This document shows positions 32,467 to 36,579 of a DNA stretch of 36,579 bases, piece after piece. Within the stretch, counting starts at the first letter, position 1, and every line of letters starts with the position of its first letter. Under the pieces are notes generated by a model. That model did not search any database, was not told where the DNA came from, and saw only the letters and a program-made list of their open reading frames with translations. The position numbers and the translations under genes were made by a program. Source of the DNA: Acidobacteriaceae bacterium (GTDB taxonomy: Bacteria; Acidobacteriota; Terriglobia; Terriglobales; Acidobacteriaceae); assembly GCA_003138975.1 (NCBI GenBank), contig PLHQ01000025.1, positions 1 to 36,579 on the forward strand, written 5' to 3'.

Positions 32467-32502
32467 TCGCGCACGTCGGAGTCTCTCACCTCCTCCCGCT
32501 GC

Positions 32503-32508
32503 TACAAT
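32503..32508 (+). promoter_or_regulatory. Possible -10 box of the sigma-factor operon
   Basis: TACAAT, preceded by GC, lies about 170 bases before the sigma gene in the 213-base gap after glgC. The same GCTACAAT phrase occurs at 29334-29341. No -35 is evident. An ECF operon often has an auto-regulated promoter, but I could not recognise the two elements of one here. Confidence 0.25.
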
Positions 32509-32679
32509 GCCTTGTTTCGAACAACTTGCGCCCGCATCATTACGCCGGCGAACTTACGCCACTACATCCGCGTACTGTCTTGTAGGGCATGGGGTGCCGT
32601 GCTGTCACCATCCCAAGCTGAACGTCAGAGTTTGCAAAGTAAGCGTCTTGGCAAGGTCTAGCTTTCCGGGGAGCTCCGT

Positions 32680-33279
32680 TTGGAAGATGTCCAGGTAGTT
32701 GCGATGCTGGTCCGCCGCTGTGTTGCGGGCGACGCCGCCGCCTGGGAAGAAATCGTCCAGACCTACAACCGGCGTATCTATAACATTTGCTACCGCTTCG
32801 CGGGATCGGCCGACGACGCGGAAGACCTCGCCCAGGAAGTCTTCATCAAGATGTACCGCACGCTGGCAAGCTATGACAGCTCGAAGGGTGCGTTCGTCAC
32901 CTGGGTGACCACCATCACCCGCAACCTGCTGGTCGATCATTTCCGCAAGACCAAGCAGGATCGCATCACCGACTCGCTCGATGCCACGTCATCCGCACAT
33001 GAGGACGCCCAGCCGCTCAGTGAGCAAATTCAGGACCAATCTGCGCCTCCCGACCAGCACGTCCGCAGCCGGGAGGTGGGAGAAGCCGTCCACGCAGCGC
33101 TCGGAAAGCTGTCGCCGGAGCTTCGTGAAGCTGTGATTCTAAGGGATTTACAAGATATGGACTATCGCGAAATCGCAACCGTTTTGAAGGTTCCGGAGGG
33201 GACTGTGAAAAGTCGAATAAATCGTGGGCGGGCGGAACTTGCACGCCTTTTACAACGTACCTATAGGCAGGTGATGTGA
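32680..33279 (+). CDS. ECF RNA polymerase sigma factor (RpoE-like)
   Basis: 199-residue extracytoplasmic-function sigma factor. Region 2 spans about 10-85 (AWEEIVQTYNRRIYNICYRFAGSADDAEDLAQEVFIKMYRTL, WVTTITRNLLVDHFRK). A Ser/Asp/Gln-rich linker covers about 92-125. Region 4 spans about 135-195 (LGKLSPELREAVILRDLQDMDYREIATVLKVPEGTVKSRINRGRAEL) with its helix-turn-helix. The start codon is TTG, supported by GGGGAG (32668-32673) six bases upstream. The stop TGA overlaps the ATG of the anti-sigma gene by one base, so the pair is coupled. The sigma is expected to be held inactive by that protein and released by an envelope signal. Confidence 0.93.
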   Translation: MEDVQVVAMLVRRCVAGDAAAWEEIVQTYNRRIYNICYRFAGSADDAEDLAQEVFIKMYRTLASYDSSKGAFVTWVTTITRNLLVDHFRKTKQDRITDSLDATSSAHEDAQPLSEQIQDQSAPPDQHVRSREVGEAVHAALGKLSPELREAVILRDLQDMDYREIATVLKVPEGTVKSRINRGRAELARLLQRTYRQVM

Positions 33280-34043
33280 TGCCAGACCACACCAGTAACG
33301 GAATGCAGTGTCACGAGTTTGAAGGCCTGCTCTCGGACGCGATCGATGGTGTCCTGACCGGCGCTCAACTCGACCGGTTCCAGGCTCACGTGCGGACTTG
33401 TTCCGCCTGCAGGCCGCTGTTCGCCGAAGTCGAGGCGGGCCGCAACTGGCTGAAGGATCTCACGGAGGTGGAGCCTCCAGTCAGCCTGGTCACGAATATC
33501 CTGGCATCCACGACGGGCGTTGACACCCAACGCCTGCGGGTGAACGTGTCTGCTCCGCAGCCACGCATTACATGGCTGGAGCGGGCGCACGCGTGGGCCT
33601 CGGGGGCAATGCAACCCCTCTGGGCAACGGTCCGCCAGCCGCGGTTTGCCATGTCGTTTGGCATGGCGTTTTTCGCGCTGTCGGTGGCGTTAAGCGTAAT
33701 CGGCGTAAAACCCGCCGACCTGCGCCAGGTGAGTTTGCGTCCCGCCGCCATACGCCACACGTATTACAACACGCAAGCCCGCGTAGTAAGGTATTACGAA
33801 AATATCCGGTTCGTGTATGAGGTGGAATCGCGGGTGCGCGAACTCAAGCGCACCGTGACGCCCGCCGAGCCCGCTCCGGAAAGGAAAGACCACAAGAACG
33901 ACACAACTCAACAGCCCGAGCAGAAGCAGGAGCGCAACTACAGCCAGACTGAGAATCATCTCATTCTGGCCAGCGCTCCGCTGGGTCTATCTGTAAACGA
34001 TCTGCCTGTAGTGTTGGTGACCACGTACAGGAGGTTCGTATGA
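33279..34043 (+). CDS. Membrane anti-sigma factor with zinc-binding (ZAS) domain
   Basis: 254 residues. The N-terminal anti-sigma domain has C11, H37, C41 and C44 (HVRTCSAC), the C-x25-H-x3-C-x2-C zinc pattern of ZAS anti-sigma factors. A predicted membrane helix lies at about 123-143 (RFAMSFGMAFFALSVALSVIGV). The following ~110 residues are extracytoplasmic: YNTQARVVRYYENIRFVYEVESRVRELK, then a Lys/Gln/Glu/Pro-rich segment. The start ATG overlaps the sigma stop by one base; an in-frame GTG one codon earlier is also possible. Its own stop overlaps the next ATG by four bases. It is expected to bind and inhibit the adjacent sigma factor; the sensing mechanism (proteolysis or conformational) cannot be read from the sequence. 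Confidence 0.9.
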   Translation: MPDHTSNGMQCHEFEGLLSDAIDGVLTGAQLDRFQAHVRTCSACRPLFAEVEAGRNWLKDLTEVEPPVSLVTNILASTTGVDTQRLRVNVSAPQPRITWLERAHAWASGAMQPLWATVRQPRFAMSFGMAFFALSVALSVIGVKPADLRQVSLRPAAIRHTYYNTQARVVRYYENIRFVYEVESRVRELKRTVTPAEPAPERKDHKNDTTQQPEQKQERNYSQTENHLILASAPLGLSVNDLPVVLVTTYRRFV

Positions 34044-35068
34044 ACTGCGCTGCACACAACGATACGGCCGCAGTCGCGTTTTGCCGCACCTGCGGCAAGC
34101 CGCTCTGCGCCAATTGCACCCGCGACGTCCGCGGAGTCGTCTACTGCGAGCCCTGTCTAGCAGCCCGTTTGGAAGGTAGCACTCCGGCTCCGGCGGCCGG
34201 ATTCGTGCCTCCGCAAGCTGTATATCCGCCGGCGGGAACGCCTGTGGCCGCGCGATCCACAGGGTCAGGCCCGAATCCCGCAGTCGCTGGCATTCTTGCT
34301 GGATTCTTTCCCTTTGGCGTCGGCGCCGTCTACTGCTCGCAATACGCCAAGGGACTGGCGCACTTGCTCATCTTCGGCCTGCTTATCTTCGGCTCGGACC
34401 ACGCTGGAAGTTGGGACGCCCTGTTCGGCATCGGCATCGCGTTTTTCTACGTCTACCAGATCATCGACGCGGTCCGCACTGCTCACGCTCTCCAGGCTGG
34501 CCAGCCTGCACCGGATCCGTTCGGTCTAGCGCAGGCTTTCAGCATGGGAGAGAAAAGCGAGACCAAGAACATTCCCACCGTTGCGATCATCCTCATTGGA
34601 CTGGGCGTGCTCTTCCTCCTGCACACCATGAACATCTGGGAGTTCGGCCTCGACCGTTTCTGGCCGATCATTCTCATCGCTCTCGGGGGATGGATGTTCG
34701 CCAGGCAGTGGGGAATGCTCGGAGTTCACCCCGCTGGCTGCACTTGCGCAACCTGCCGCGTGCGAAAAGCCGTCGGGATGAACTGCCGATGCGATCGCTG
34801 CCGCATGCGGAAAATCATGGGGCCGGCCATCCTGGTGACCATTGGAACGTTGCTCCTGCTCCAGAGCCTCAATGTCGCCAGCTTTGAACGAACCTGGCCC
34901 GCGATCCTGCTGGTGGTTGGCATAGTGAAACTGCTGCAGAGCAGCGCCTCATCGGCCGGACACATCGGACTGCTGCCGCCAGGGCCGCCACCCGCCGCGC
35001 CGCCCCCACCGCCTTCATCTTCCGATCCGGGAGCAACGTCTCCTTCCGGGGAGGTGCGCAATGTCTAG
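34040..35068 (+). CDS. B-box zinc-finger membrane protein with LiaI-like segments and a twin CxCxxC cluster
   Basis: 342 residues. The N-terminal B-box-type zinc finger uses C3, H6, C15/C18, C23/C26 and C36/C39. A Pro/Ala linker (47-78) leads to membrane segments at about 81-118 and 127-147 (AGILAGFFPFGVGAVYCSQYAKGLAHLLIFGLLIFG...FFYVYQIIDAVRTAH), then LiaI/DUF5668-like pairs at 179-222 and 261-300 (LIGLGVLFLLHTMNIW, RFWPIILIALGGWMF; LVTIGTLLLLQSLNV, TWPAILLVVGIVKLL). Between these pairs is C234-x-C-x2-C239-x9-C249-x-C-x2-C254, an apparent duplication of CxCxxCRxRK. The tail is Pro-rich. AGGAGG lies five bases before the ATG, which overlaps the anti-sigma stop by four bases. The role is probably sensing or scaffolding in the envelope-stress operon; this is inference. 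Confidence 0.85.
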   Translation: MNCAAHNDTAAVAFCRTCGKPLCANCTRDVRGVVYCEPCLAARLEGSTPAPAAGFVPPQAVYPPAGTPVAARSTGSGPNPAVAGILAGFFPFGVGAVYCSQYAKGLAHLLIFGLLIFGSDHAGSWDALFGIGIAFFYVYQIIDAVRTAHALQAGQPAPDPFGLAQAFSMGEKSETKNIPTVAIILIGLGVLFLLHTMNIWEFGLDRFWPIILIALGGWMFARQWGMLGVHPAGCTCATCRVRKAVGMNCRCDRCRMRKIMGPAILVTIGTLLLLQSLNVASFERTWPAILLVVGIVKLLQSSASSAGHIGLLPPGPPPAAPPPPPSSSDPGATSPSGEVRNV

Positions 35069-36560
35069 CCCACTTCAAACCCCTGTTCAACCGCCTGTTC
35101 CGCCACGCCGCTATCGCCGTTCTTTTGCCGGACCGTTCGTGCTGATTGTCCTCGGAATTATCTTCCTGCTCGGCAATCTGCACATGCTGTCGTGGCCGCA
35201 CTTGGGCGCATGGTTTGCTCACTACTGGCCGCTGCTGTTGATCCTGTGGGGAGTGATCAAGCTGATCGAGCACCAGCAAGCTCAACGCGACGGATTGCCC
35301 GCTCGTGGCATTGGTGCGGGTGGGATTTTTCTGGTCATCGTCATCGTGATCTGCGGACTGATCGCCACGCAAGCCTCGCGCTTCAACTGGGGCCAAATCC
35401 GCGACAACATGGACATGGACGACAGCGATCTTAATAACATCTTCGGCGAGACCTACAACTTCGATGACCACCTCGAACAGGACATACCGCCCGCCGTCAC
35501 CAGTCTGCGCGTTAATGACGAGCACGGCGCGGTGCGCGTCAGCGTGGCCAACAACAACAAAATCACAGTCATAATCCACAAACGCGTCGGCGCGGAAAAC
35601 CAGGGTGACGCCGATAAGTACAACAAACAAACTGCACCAGAGATAGCCCTCGCCGGCAATATGATGGTTCTCGATGCCAGAACCCAGGCCGCCGGCGACC
35701 ATTCTGTACAAACTGATCTCGATATCTCGGTCCCCCGCAAGATGGAACTCCACATCACTGCGCACAAGGGCGATGTCTCCGTCACCGGCCGCGAGGGAGA
35801 AGTCGAGATTGCCAACCAGCACGGCGAAGTTTCCGTGGAAGACGTCACCGGCAACGTGAAACTGAATCTGGAAAAAAGTTCCGCCAAGGTCGAGCAGATT
35901 ACCGGCGACGTCCACATCGACGGCCGCCTCAACGAAGTCTCCGTTATGGATGTGAAGGGTTCAGCTCAACTCGACGGAGAATTCCAGGAGAGTGTCAAAC
36001 TCGCCCGCATCAGCAAGAATGTGTCTTTCAAGTCTTCCCGCACCGACATGGAGTTCTCGCGGATCGATGGCGATCTCGATCTGGATTCCGACGACCTCCA
36101 CGCAGAAAAGATCACCGGCCCCCTCCACTTGACCACGCGCTCCAAGCAGATTCGCCTGATCGATGTTTCCGGCGATGTCCGCCTGCAGAATGACAACGGC
36201 GGCATTGAGGTATCGATGCGTTCACTGGGGAATGTGCAGATCGACAGCCGTAACGGCGACGTGCAGTTGAGCGTGCCTGACAAGGCAGGCTTCCGCGTAG
36301 ATGCGCGCACCCGCGATGGCGAAATCCAGTCGGACTTTCCGGAGTTGAAAGTCGAGAACGGGGACCACGAGGCCAGCGCCACTGGCACCGTGGGGAATGG
36401 AACTTCCCACATAGTGATCAACAATGAGCACGATGGCATTGAGATTCGCAAGGTCTCTGCCACCGCTTCATCGGCACCCCCTGCGCCTCCGGCGACACCG
36501 GCGAAGCCTGCCAAATCCCTGCCCGCCCCCAAAGCGAAAGTCGAACCTACGGACAACTAG
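35061..36560 (+). CDS. LiaI-like membrane segment plus DUF4097-type beta-helical protein
   Basis: 499 residues. A Pro-rich N-terminus (1-16) is followed by membrane segments at about 23-39 (GPFVLIVLGIIFLLGNL), 55-70 (YWPLLLILWGVIKLIE) and 84-104 (IGAGGIFLVIVIVICGLIATQ), the LiaI/DUF5668 pattern. From about 140 to 460 there is a repetitive beta-strand domain of the DUF4097/adhesin-like type with many short GDV/GEV turns (HKGDVSVTGREGEVEIANQHGEVSVEDVTGNVKLNL...NGDVQLSVPDKAGFRVDARTRDGEIQSDF). The C-terminus is an Ala/Pro/Lys tail. GGAGG lies six bases before the ATG, which overlaps the preceding gene by eight bases. Likely extracytoplasmic exposure of the beta domain; proposed partner of the B-box protein. 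No enzymatic motif is visible. Confidence 0.85.
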   Translation: MSSPLQTPVQPPVPPRRYRRSFAGPFVLIVLGIIFLLGNLHMLSWPHLGAWFAHYWPLLLILWGVIKLIEHQQAQRDGLPARGIGAGGIFLVIVIVICGLIATQASRFNWGQIRDNMDMDDSDLNNIFGETYNFDDHLEQDIPPAVTSLRVNDEHGAVRVSVANNNKITVIIHKRVGAENQGDADKYNKQTAPEIALAGNMMVLDARTQAAGDHSVQTDLDISVPRKMELHITAHKGDVSVTGREGEVEIANQHGEVSVEDVTGNVKLNLEKSSAKVEQITGDVHIDGRLNEVSVMDVKGSAQLDGEFQESVKLARISKNVSFKSSRTDMEFSRIDGDLDLDSDDLHAEKITGPLHLTTRSKQIRLIDVSGDVRLQNDNGGIEVSMRSLGNVQIDSRNGDVQLSVPDKAGFRVDARTRDGEIQSDFPELKVENGDHEASATGTVGNGTSHIVINNEHDGIEIRKVSATASSAPPAPPATPAKPAKSLPAPKAKVEPTDN

Positions 36561-36565
36561 ACTAA

Positions 36566-36579
36566 CTAGACTAGTCTAG
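36566..36579. repeat. Perfect 14-bp palindrome at the end of the window
   Basis: CTAGACTAGTCTAG is a perfect palindrome formed by the last 14 bases, six bases after the final stop codon, with AACTAGACT repeated twice just before and into it. It may be a hairpin at the operon end or an assembly-edge artefact. Confidence 0.35.

Follow-up and report, generated by a model that had tools for sequence, protein, structure and literature searches.

A candidate envelope-stress module of Acidobacteriota: an ECF sigma factor operon with LiaI-like and Toastrack membrane proteins and a likely promoter link to a distant pspC gene

What would an extracytoplasmic function (ECF) sigma factor and its anti-sigma factor do with two membrane proteins built from LiaI-like segments, one bearing zinc motifs and the other a Toastrack (DUF4097) domain? 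The question is raised by four open reading frames (ORFs) that lie in tandem at positions 32680-36560 of a 36,579-nucleotide stretch of Acidobacteriaceae DNA (contig PLHQ01000025.1, assembly GCA_003138975.1), referred to here as the window. To our knowledge, and as an impression, the regulation of envelope stress in Acidobacteriota has been little studied. A preliminary description, made from the letters of the window, proposed that the four genes are a coupled envelope-stress unit. Our reading, to which we assign a probability of roughly 0.6, is that they form a self-inducing ECF module that runs an envelope-stress response of the Psp/Lia type and has PspC as a distant target. The unit, its conservation, its domain pieces, its promoter and the recurrence of that promoter before pspC can be read from the sequence; the topology, the use of both promoters by the sigma factor and the working of the complex are proposals, and are worded as such where they are discussed.

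The ORFs overlap by 1, 4 and 8 nt, exactly as had been described, and the strong Shine-Dalgarno sequences noted earlier for the last two genes are AGGAGG before gene 3 and GGGGAGG before gene 4. Gene 1 starts with TTG and genes 2, 3 and 4 with ATG; a sigma factor start at ATG 32704 was considered less likely, as 32680-32704 is conserved genus-wide and opens with TTG, GTG or ATG. We compared 23 loci from the genus of the window, which is itself one of them (the genus loci): 19 keep the full set of overlaps exactly, and taken singly the overlaps occur in 23 (1 nt), 21 (4 nt) and 21 (8 nt); some of the exceptions may stem from sequence gaps or from the choice of start. A survey of gene order in 35 stretches from the genus, the order and the class, some of them cut at a contig end, recovered the series sigma factor, zinc anti-sigma factor, B-box-TM2-LiaI protein and LiaI-Toastrack protein in 33, and the remaining two are short contigs. 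The neighbours vary. A fifth operon gene was rejected, as 11 genus loci have no common next gene and in some of these the downstream gene lies on the opposite strand; upstream, glgC lies in the fetched stretch of 7 of the 23 genus loci. Since the surroundings are variable and the order and overlaps are kept, the four genes are the unit, and the earlier view of one coupled unit is borne out. In the genome carrying the window (G000) the region downstream of gene 4 is unreadable, the contig stopping 19 nt past the gene; this short, repetitive terminal stretch (36561-36579, actagactagtctag) is probably an assembly edge.

A gene 3 profile matches 135 of 247 Acidobacteriota genomes at E ≤ 1e-12. Forty loci were picked by hand from these for diversity, and sigma factor, anti-sigma factor, gene 3 and Toastrack genes stand in order in 28 of them, a count that is not a phylum frequency; L302, L303, L309 and L312, whose upstream parts are cut by contig ends, were retained among the 40. 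Two loci of one distant family, L313 and L323, have a sigma factor, a B-box protein and two Toastrack proteins with no zinc anti-sigma (ZAS) gene between; a few kb further along there is another sigma/anti-sigma-like pair.

The first two genes encode a regulatory pair. Gene 1 matches Sigma70_r2 (1.5e-22) and r4_2 (1.3e-17) in Pfam and TIGR02937 with 118.5 bits (cut-off 42.9), and has the ECF layout of regions 2 and 4 in about 200 amino acids, with no region 3 among the Pfam matches. By NCBIfam it is SigE/SigW-like, yet below the equivalog cut-offs (139.9 against 209 bits for SigW). Gene 2 matches zf-HC2 (2.3e-10), and residues H37, C41 and C44 of the ZAS motif HxxxCxxC are invariant in all 30 rows of an alignment (A4; L033, L060 and L061 were left out). 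With this motif, a single transmembrane helix at 33642-33716 (hydropathy) and a gene adjoining the sigma factor gene, its product is, on sequence grounds, a ZAS-type anti-sigma factor, for which binding and inhibition of the sigma factor are predicted. The tail past the helix would be periplasmic.

As a rule, own promoters of ECF sigma factors are of the AAC/CGT type, and such an element, P2, stands ahead of gene 1. GAAC-N17-CGTA was found at this single spacing in 21 of 22 genus upstream regions, where 0.00-0.04 are expected per locus (expected counts here and below derive from first-order Markov sequences of the regions concerned). The sole exception, L047, reads AAACTT, and L037 was left out of the count as its contig begins within the sigma factor gene. 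P2 is probably autoregulatory, its recognition by the sigma factor being predicted. The motif with N16..18 also precedes the sigma factor gene in all nine loci from other genera of the family (L284-L292).

Other conserved sequences surround P2. About 40 nt upstream lies TGCTACAAT, an extended -10-like element that is a possible housekeeping promoter (P1); TACAAT is also present in the spacer of many pspC promoters. Past CGTA, at 32576-32583, the stretch TGTCTTGT is common to the operon and many pspC promoters and is perhaps an operator or a start-region signal; we know of no need for such a stretch in ECF promoters. One genome (G003, contig C69:43700-46700; locus L154) has a partial duplication: a second copy of the promoter with about 27 sigma factor codons, 96% identical, lies some 7.7 kb ahead of the genuine operon, on one contig with it.

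By following matches of the promoter pattern outside the operon we arrived at a gene that encodes a zinc ribbon-PspC protein (PF04024, 2.3e-23). The gene is present in 44 of 45 genus genomes; G000 has a single PspC gene, on contig C90, away from the operon. Bare GAACTT-N14..16-CGTA proved uninformative (30 sites in G000, 28 for a reversed control). The longer GAACTT-N15-CGTAYTGT has matches in 36 of the 45 genomes and the reversed control 4 in all. Two profiles were then built, each blind to the other set of promoters. R1, trained on 27 of 32 operon promoters without any from pspC, was run over the 45 genomes and gave 55 matches at E ≤ 0.01: 39 at operons, many of which are training promoters and so found by construction, 12 at pspC, which are not, and four others (the second copy in G003, two in an msrB-like frame and one in G012). 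All five operon loci left out of R1 (L033, L040, L047, L053, L164) are matched by it; its matches above E 0.01 are a mixture. In G000 it has two matches at E ≤ 0.5, the operon (1.4e-8, a training promoter) and pspC (5.2e-4). R2 was made from 25 of 32 pspC promoters and no operon promoter, the seven least alike being dropped by eye; 11 further pspC orthologues have no pattern match, and R2 leans to the commoner form. At E ≤ 0.01 it gave 32 matches in 40 genomes, 26 at pspC (mostly training promoters), six at operons and none elsewhere, and between 0.01 and 0.3 a further 19, comprising 12 operons, the G003 copy and six others. Both searches scored 145-150 candidates per genome, so that weaker targets were possibly missed.

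Counted without profiles, 36 of 43 orthologues of the zinc ribbon-PspC gene have GAAC-N16..17-CGTA in the 200 nt ahead of them (expected 0.2; G002 was left out for a contig edge, and one masked upstream region is included), as do 7/7 paralogues (expected 0.01). These paralogues are second zinc-ribbon PspC genes, 43-53% identical, in G052, G003, G014, G041, G018, G049 and G060 (seven of nine such copies, those of G043 and G010 being left out), and all seven upstream regions read GAACAT..CGTA. In 18 of 26 genomes outside the genus there are 20 PspC matches, of which 13 are preceded by GAAC-N15..18-CGT(A/C) (expected 0.39), 12 in the same family and one in the same class. PspA, encoded away from the operon in 17 of 21 genomes (on contig C37 in G000), was rejected as a target: no GAAC-CGTA was found within 250 nt before the pspA ORF at any of the eight loci examined. 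It is likely, judging from the promoters, that the same sigma factor reads both the operon and pspC, and a promoter common to the operon and PspC speaks for the envelope-stress role that had been suggested. Coordinates of all features are collected in Table 1.

Table 1. Positions in the window of the four genes, their domains and the promoter elements.
Feature	Position	Strand	Basis
P1, TGCTACAAT, extended -10-like element	32500..32508	+	near-invariant CTGCTACAAT, 22-locus genus upstream alignment
P2, ECF-type promoter: GAACTT 32550-32555, N15, CGTA 32571-32574, then CTGT	32550..32578	+	
Gene 1, ECF sigma factor, TTG start	32680..33279	+	Pfam, NCBIfam
Gene 2, ZAS-type membrane anti-sigma factor	33279..34043	+	zf-HC2, alignment A4, hydropathy
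Gene 3, B-box/TM2-like/LiaI/zinc loop/LiaI membrane protein	34040..35068	+	Pfam, AlphaFold2 (AF2)
Gene 3 B-box zinc finger, residues 1-44	34040..34171	+	PF00643 8.9e-6; invariant Cys/His; pLDDT about 90
Gene 3 TM2-like segment, residues 80-152	34277..34495	+	alignment, AF2 model
Gene 3 first LiaI hairpin, residues 178-223	34571..34708	+	PF18917, AF2 model
Gene 3 zinc-type loop, CxCxxC-x9-CxCxxC, residues 234-254	34739..34801	+	sequence
Gene 3 second LiaI hairpin, residues 252-305	34793..34954	+	cross-family comparison, AF2 model
Gene 4, LiaI-like three-helix anchor and Toastrack (DUF4097)	35061..36560	+	Pfam, AF2, Foldseek, VIA
Gene 4 three transmembrane helices, residues 23-107	35127..35381	+	AF2: 23-38, 45-77, 86-107
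Gene 4 Toastrack beta-helix, residues 129-465, predicted periplasmic	35445..36455	+	AF2 pLDDT mostly above 90; Foldseek; VIA

The two membrane proteins carry related segments (PF18917 and PF22570, of the LiaI-LiaF-like membrane kind, are matched in genes 3 and 4), and Pfam agrees with the domains assigned to all four genes in the preliminary description. Gene 3 has the B-box and, over two stretches, LiaI-LiaF-like_TM1 (2.6e-14). Its AF2 model (mean pLDDT 71, pTM 0.41), weaker than that of gene 4, shows six likely membrane helices and a B-box modelled with confidence; the B-box would be cytoplasmic. The segment at residues 80-152 is not a Pfam match, and it is called TM2-like here. Most genus members have one CxCxxC in the zinc loop and L037 has lost it, so the double motif of the window is not strictly needed.

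The second LiaI hairpin changes its place between lineages. Gene 3 of the window's genus carries it as a C-terminal fusion. In a sister family (f2) gene 3 is shorter, and the piece is either a small separate gene (encoding 79 amino acids in L058 and L061) or an N-terminal fusion partner of the Toastrack protein (L055, L063). The separate piece usually bears CxxC or CxCxxC; that of L056 has no zinc motif. A fusion of B-box and Toastrack in L055 was rejected, the two being separate genes there: it is the LiaI piece that joins Toastrack. That one segment attaches to gene 3 in some lineages and to gene 4 in others is good evidence that the two membrane proteins work together, in keeping with the earlier linking of the two. 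A hairpin, if the piece is one, would bring an even number of helices to its fusion partner, leaving the other domains on the same side of the membrane as before.

Gene 4 matches DUF4097 (PF13349, 7.3e-15) and LiaF-TM (5.3e-8). Its AF2 model, built with 29 sequences (mean pLDDT 81, pTM 0.66), contains a beta-helix for which Foldseek returned 4qrk (E 4.6e-8), then 3lyc and 3pet, and VIA gave Z scores of 11.5-13.4 to 3lyc, 3ljy, 3jx8, 4opw, 3pet, 4qrk and 4ygu (4qrk: Z 11.7, rmsd 2.8, 155 aligned). A profile match combined with a 4QRK-like beta-helix identifies it as a Toastrack protein; 4QRK and 4OPW are named as Toastrack examples in passages of Ravi et al. 2024 (PMC11237479). A sequence search of the PDB with gene 4 gave nothing convincing (best E 0.96), and the top VIA row, 7muc_AM (a Legionella Dot/Icm chain, Z 13.8), was taken to reflect a common beta-helix only. 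Three helices precede the Toastrack domain in the model, two of which are recovered by a hydropathy script. Averaged over the 29 sequences, K+R/D+E is 3.2/0.2 ahead of helix 1, 0.9/0.1 from helix 1 to helix 2, 2.0/1.8 from helix 2 to helix 3 and 1.7/4.4 past helix 3. Because the number of helices is odd and the charges follow this pattern, net negative past the third helix, the domain is probably periplasmic by prediction, as had been proposed for the large beta-helix.

From these pieces we propose the following mechanism. At rest the sigma factor would be kept at the inner membrane by the ZAS anti-sigma factor. Two proteins, the B-box/LiaI protein with cytoplasmic ends and the LiaI-Toastrack protein with its beta-helix in the periplasm, would assemble into a complex in the membrane and modulate the anti-sigma factor, probably by sensing and by feeding back negatively. 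Damage to the envelope would alter this complex and cause the anti-sigma factor to release the sigma factor, which would then transcribe its own operon from GAACTT-N15-CGTA and the distant zinc-ribbon PspC gene from a closely similar promoter. A precedent for an inhibiting partner is enterococcal LiaX, whose C-terminal domain of beta-strands is reported to inhibit LiaFSR (PMC10269926).

Several observations weigh against this reading. In the 40 phylum loci, no Toastrack match (1e-4) was found in L299, L301, L302, L308, L315 and L316 despite room downstream, and no anti-sigma match in L299, L313, L317 and L323, also despite room; a gene lacking HxxxCxxC occupies the position in L317, and no gene does in L313 and L323. 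In the preliminary description the DUF4097 domain would read the envelope and the zinc protein would relay to the anti-sigma factor, and further findings speak against such a zinc relay as a general rule: a regular expression finds the B-box in 28 of the 40 (a count that falsely misses at least L291), gene 3 of L304-L306, L317-L319 and L322 opens directly with the membrane part, and CxCxxC outside the B-box occurs only in L290-L292. In two sister-family loci the Toastrack gene lies about 1.9 kb (L057) and 0.9 kb (L062) past the small LiaI gene. As for the promoter, the motif precedes the sigma factor gene in one of 10 sister-family and class loci (L059), and GAAC-N16..18-CGTA was found in 11 of 46 loci overall (expected 0.5). 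R2 gives the G000 operon an E of 0.06 only, the R1 match in G012 (E 0.009) adjoins neither the cassette nor pspC, and no motif stands before three PspC matches of distant families (f61, f44, f57). The R1 matches in G004 and G017 were regarded as chance, as they overlap a reading frame that, recognised by eye, is presumably msrB.

The alternative that survives best, unlikely as we judge it, keeps the same regulon and makes genes 3 and 4 its output: they would be sigma-induced effectors that protect the membrane, like LiaI, LiaG or YvlB, and the anti-sigma factor alone would sense. A conserved segment of the anti-sigma factor past its transmembrane helix, around RYYENIRFVYE and still recognisable in the sister family (A4), would suit a sensor, and LiaG and YvlB of B. 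subtilis interact with PspA homologues by two-hybrid, according to part of a Psp survey (PMC9239133). The coupling of genes 3 and 4 to the anti-sigma gene by exact overlaps suggests instead a fixed stoichiometry with the regulator, and L313 and L323 keep sigma factor, B-box and Toastrack genes together without an anti-sigma gene.

A second alternative, which seems to us improbable, lets the sigma factor read its own operon and gives pspC to another ECF sigma factor with similar -35 and -10 preferences. Points against the preferred reading count here as points in favour: G000 has 22 sigma70-r2 genes over the cut-off, so that pspC could be transcribed by another ECF sigma factor; N14 is the usual spacer in pspC promoters and N15 in those of the operon; and downstream likeness is weaker in some species, TGTCTTGT being absent from several pspC promoters. 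On the other side, R1 and R2 recover each other's targets, and no third G000 site appears at E 0.5 (R1) or 0.3 (R2) among the 145-150 candidates scored. That the B-box/LiaI protein is itself the sigma antagonist or a co-antagonist, with the ZAS protein auxiliary, would fit the related loci L313 and L323, where no ZAS gene separates the sigma factor and B-box genes, and is very improbable given a ZAS motif invariant in 30/30 anti-sigma factors and several cassettes that have an anti-sigma match and no B-box.

The preferred reading, a self-inducing module with PspC as distant target, may be extended, tentatively and with more doubt than belief, to an ancestral sigma-driven Psp response that works with neither PspF nor LiaRS; here a Toastrack domain in the periplasm would sense damage in a complex with the anti-sigma factor, zinc-ribbon PspC would be the conserved distant effector and LiaI segments would be interchangeable adaptors. 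In any case the four-gene switch is widely seen in Acidobacteriota and suggests an undescribed way of running a membrane-damage response. It offers a candidate regulator for pspC genes of this family that lie apart from other psp genes, a link invisible to surveys of gene neighbourhoods. It makes testable whether Toastrack domains regulate or protect, and also their disputed sidedness, placed inside in passages of Ravi et al. (PMC11237479) and outside for the LiaG DUF4097 domain in those of the Psp survey (PMC9239133). The two promoters could be used to follow the response in a major soil phylum. A literature search that did not cover the main ECF classification paper turned up nothing that connects an ECF sigma factor with DUF4097 and PspC within Acidobacteriota, and nothing on the present module, its mobile LiaI segment or a tie by promoter to a remote PspC gene; related contexts are known, and the module would be a new form of these.

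The nearest of these contexts are those of Ravi et al. 2024 (PMC11237479), who define Toastrack and LiaI-LiaF-TM and, in the passages drawn on here, mention a four-gene context of DUF2089, LiaI-LiaF-TM and B-box or PspC variants with an operonically linked sigma factor, argue for a cytoplasmic location of Toastrack and propose these contexts as a Psp analogue. The statement that no function had been described for the combination thus stands, with the amendment that related contexts are mentioned there; 'Acidobacteri' is absent from the main text of that paper, and its supplements may list such loci. Toastrack, LiaI-LiaF-TM, a B-box and a linked sigma factor are common to both. In contrast, no DUF2089 (ZnR-HTH-SHOCT) match was found in the Pfam tables of genes 1-4, the regulator here is an ECF sigma factor with a ZAS anti-sigma factor, pspC is linked in trans by its promoter, and Toastrack is predicted to be periplasmic. 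The operon resembles the Lia systems in its LiaI-like helices and Toastrack domain, and gene 4 matches the NCBIfam models of LiaG (8.8e-15) and LiaX (6e-8), both far below the cut-offs; LiaX is said, in part of the source, to recognise daptomycin extracellularly (PMC9752123). LiaFSR and LiaIHGFSR differ from the present operon, where no histidine kinase or response regulator of a LiaRS pair was found among genes 1-4 by Pfam and the output is a sigma factor. Unlike the Psp system, the operon has no PspA homologue among its four genes. The Psp survey, in the parts drawn on here, includes Acidobacteriota, reports PspA there and finds pspC regularly outside operons (PMC9239133); neighbourhoods cannot tie such a lone pspC to a regulator, and the promoter link described here can.

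Sigma-W promoters of B. subtilis have a CGTA -10 element, and the sigW gene is located away from yvlABCD. These four genes, which include those for DUF4097 and PspC proteins, are at least partly under sigma-W according to part of the source (PMC12791056), so that there, as we propose here, an ECF sigma factor controls a DUF4097 protein (YvlB) and a PspC-type protein (YvlC). The layouts differ: yvlB and yvlC share one operon, whereas in Acidobacteriota the Toastrack gene travels with the sigma and anti-sigma genes and pspC is distant. An ECF sigma factor, DUF4097 and PspC are thus already linked in Bacillota (PMC12791056), in another arrangement.

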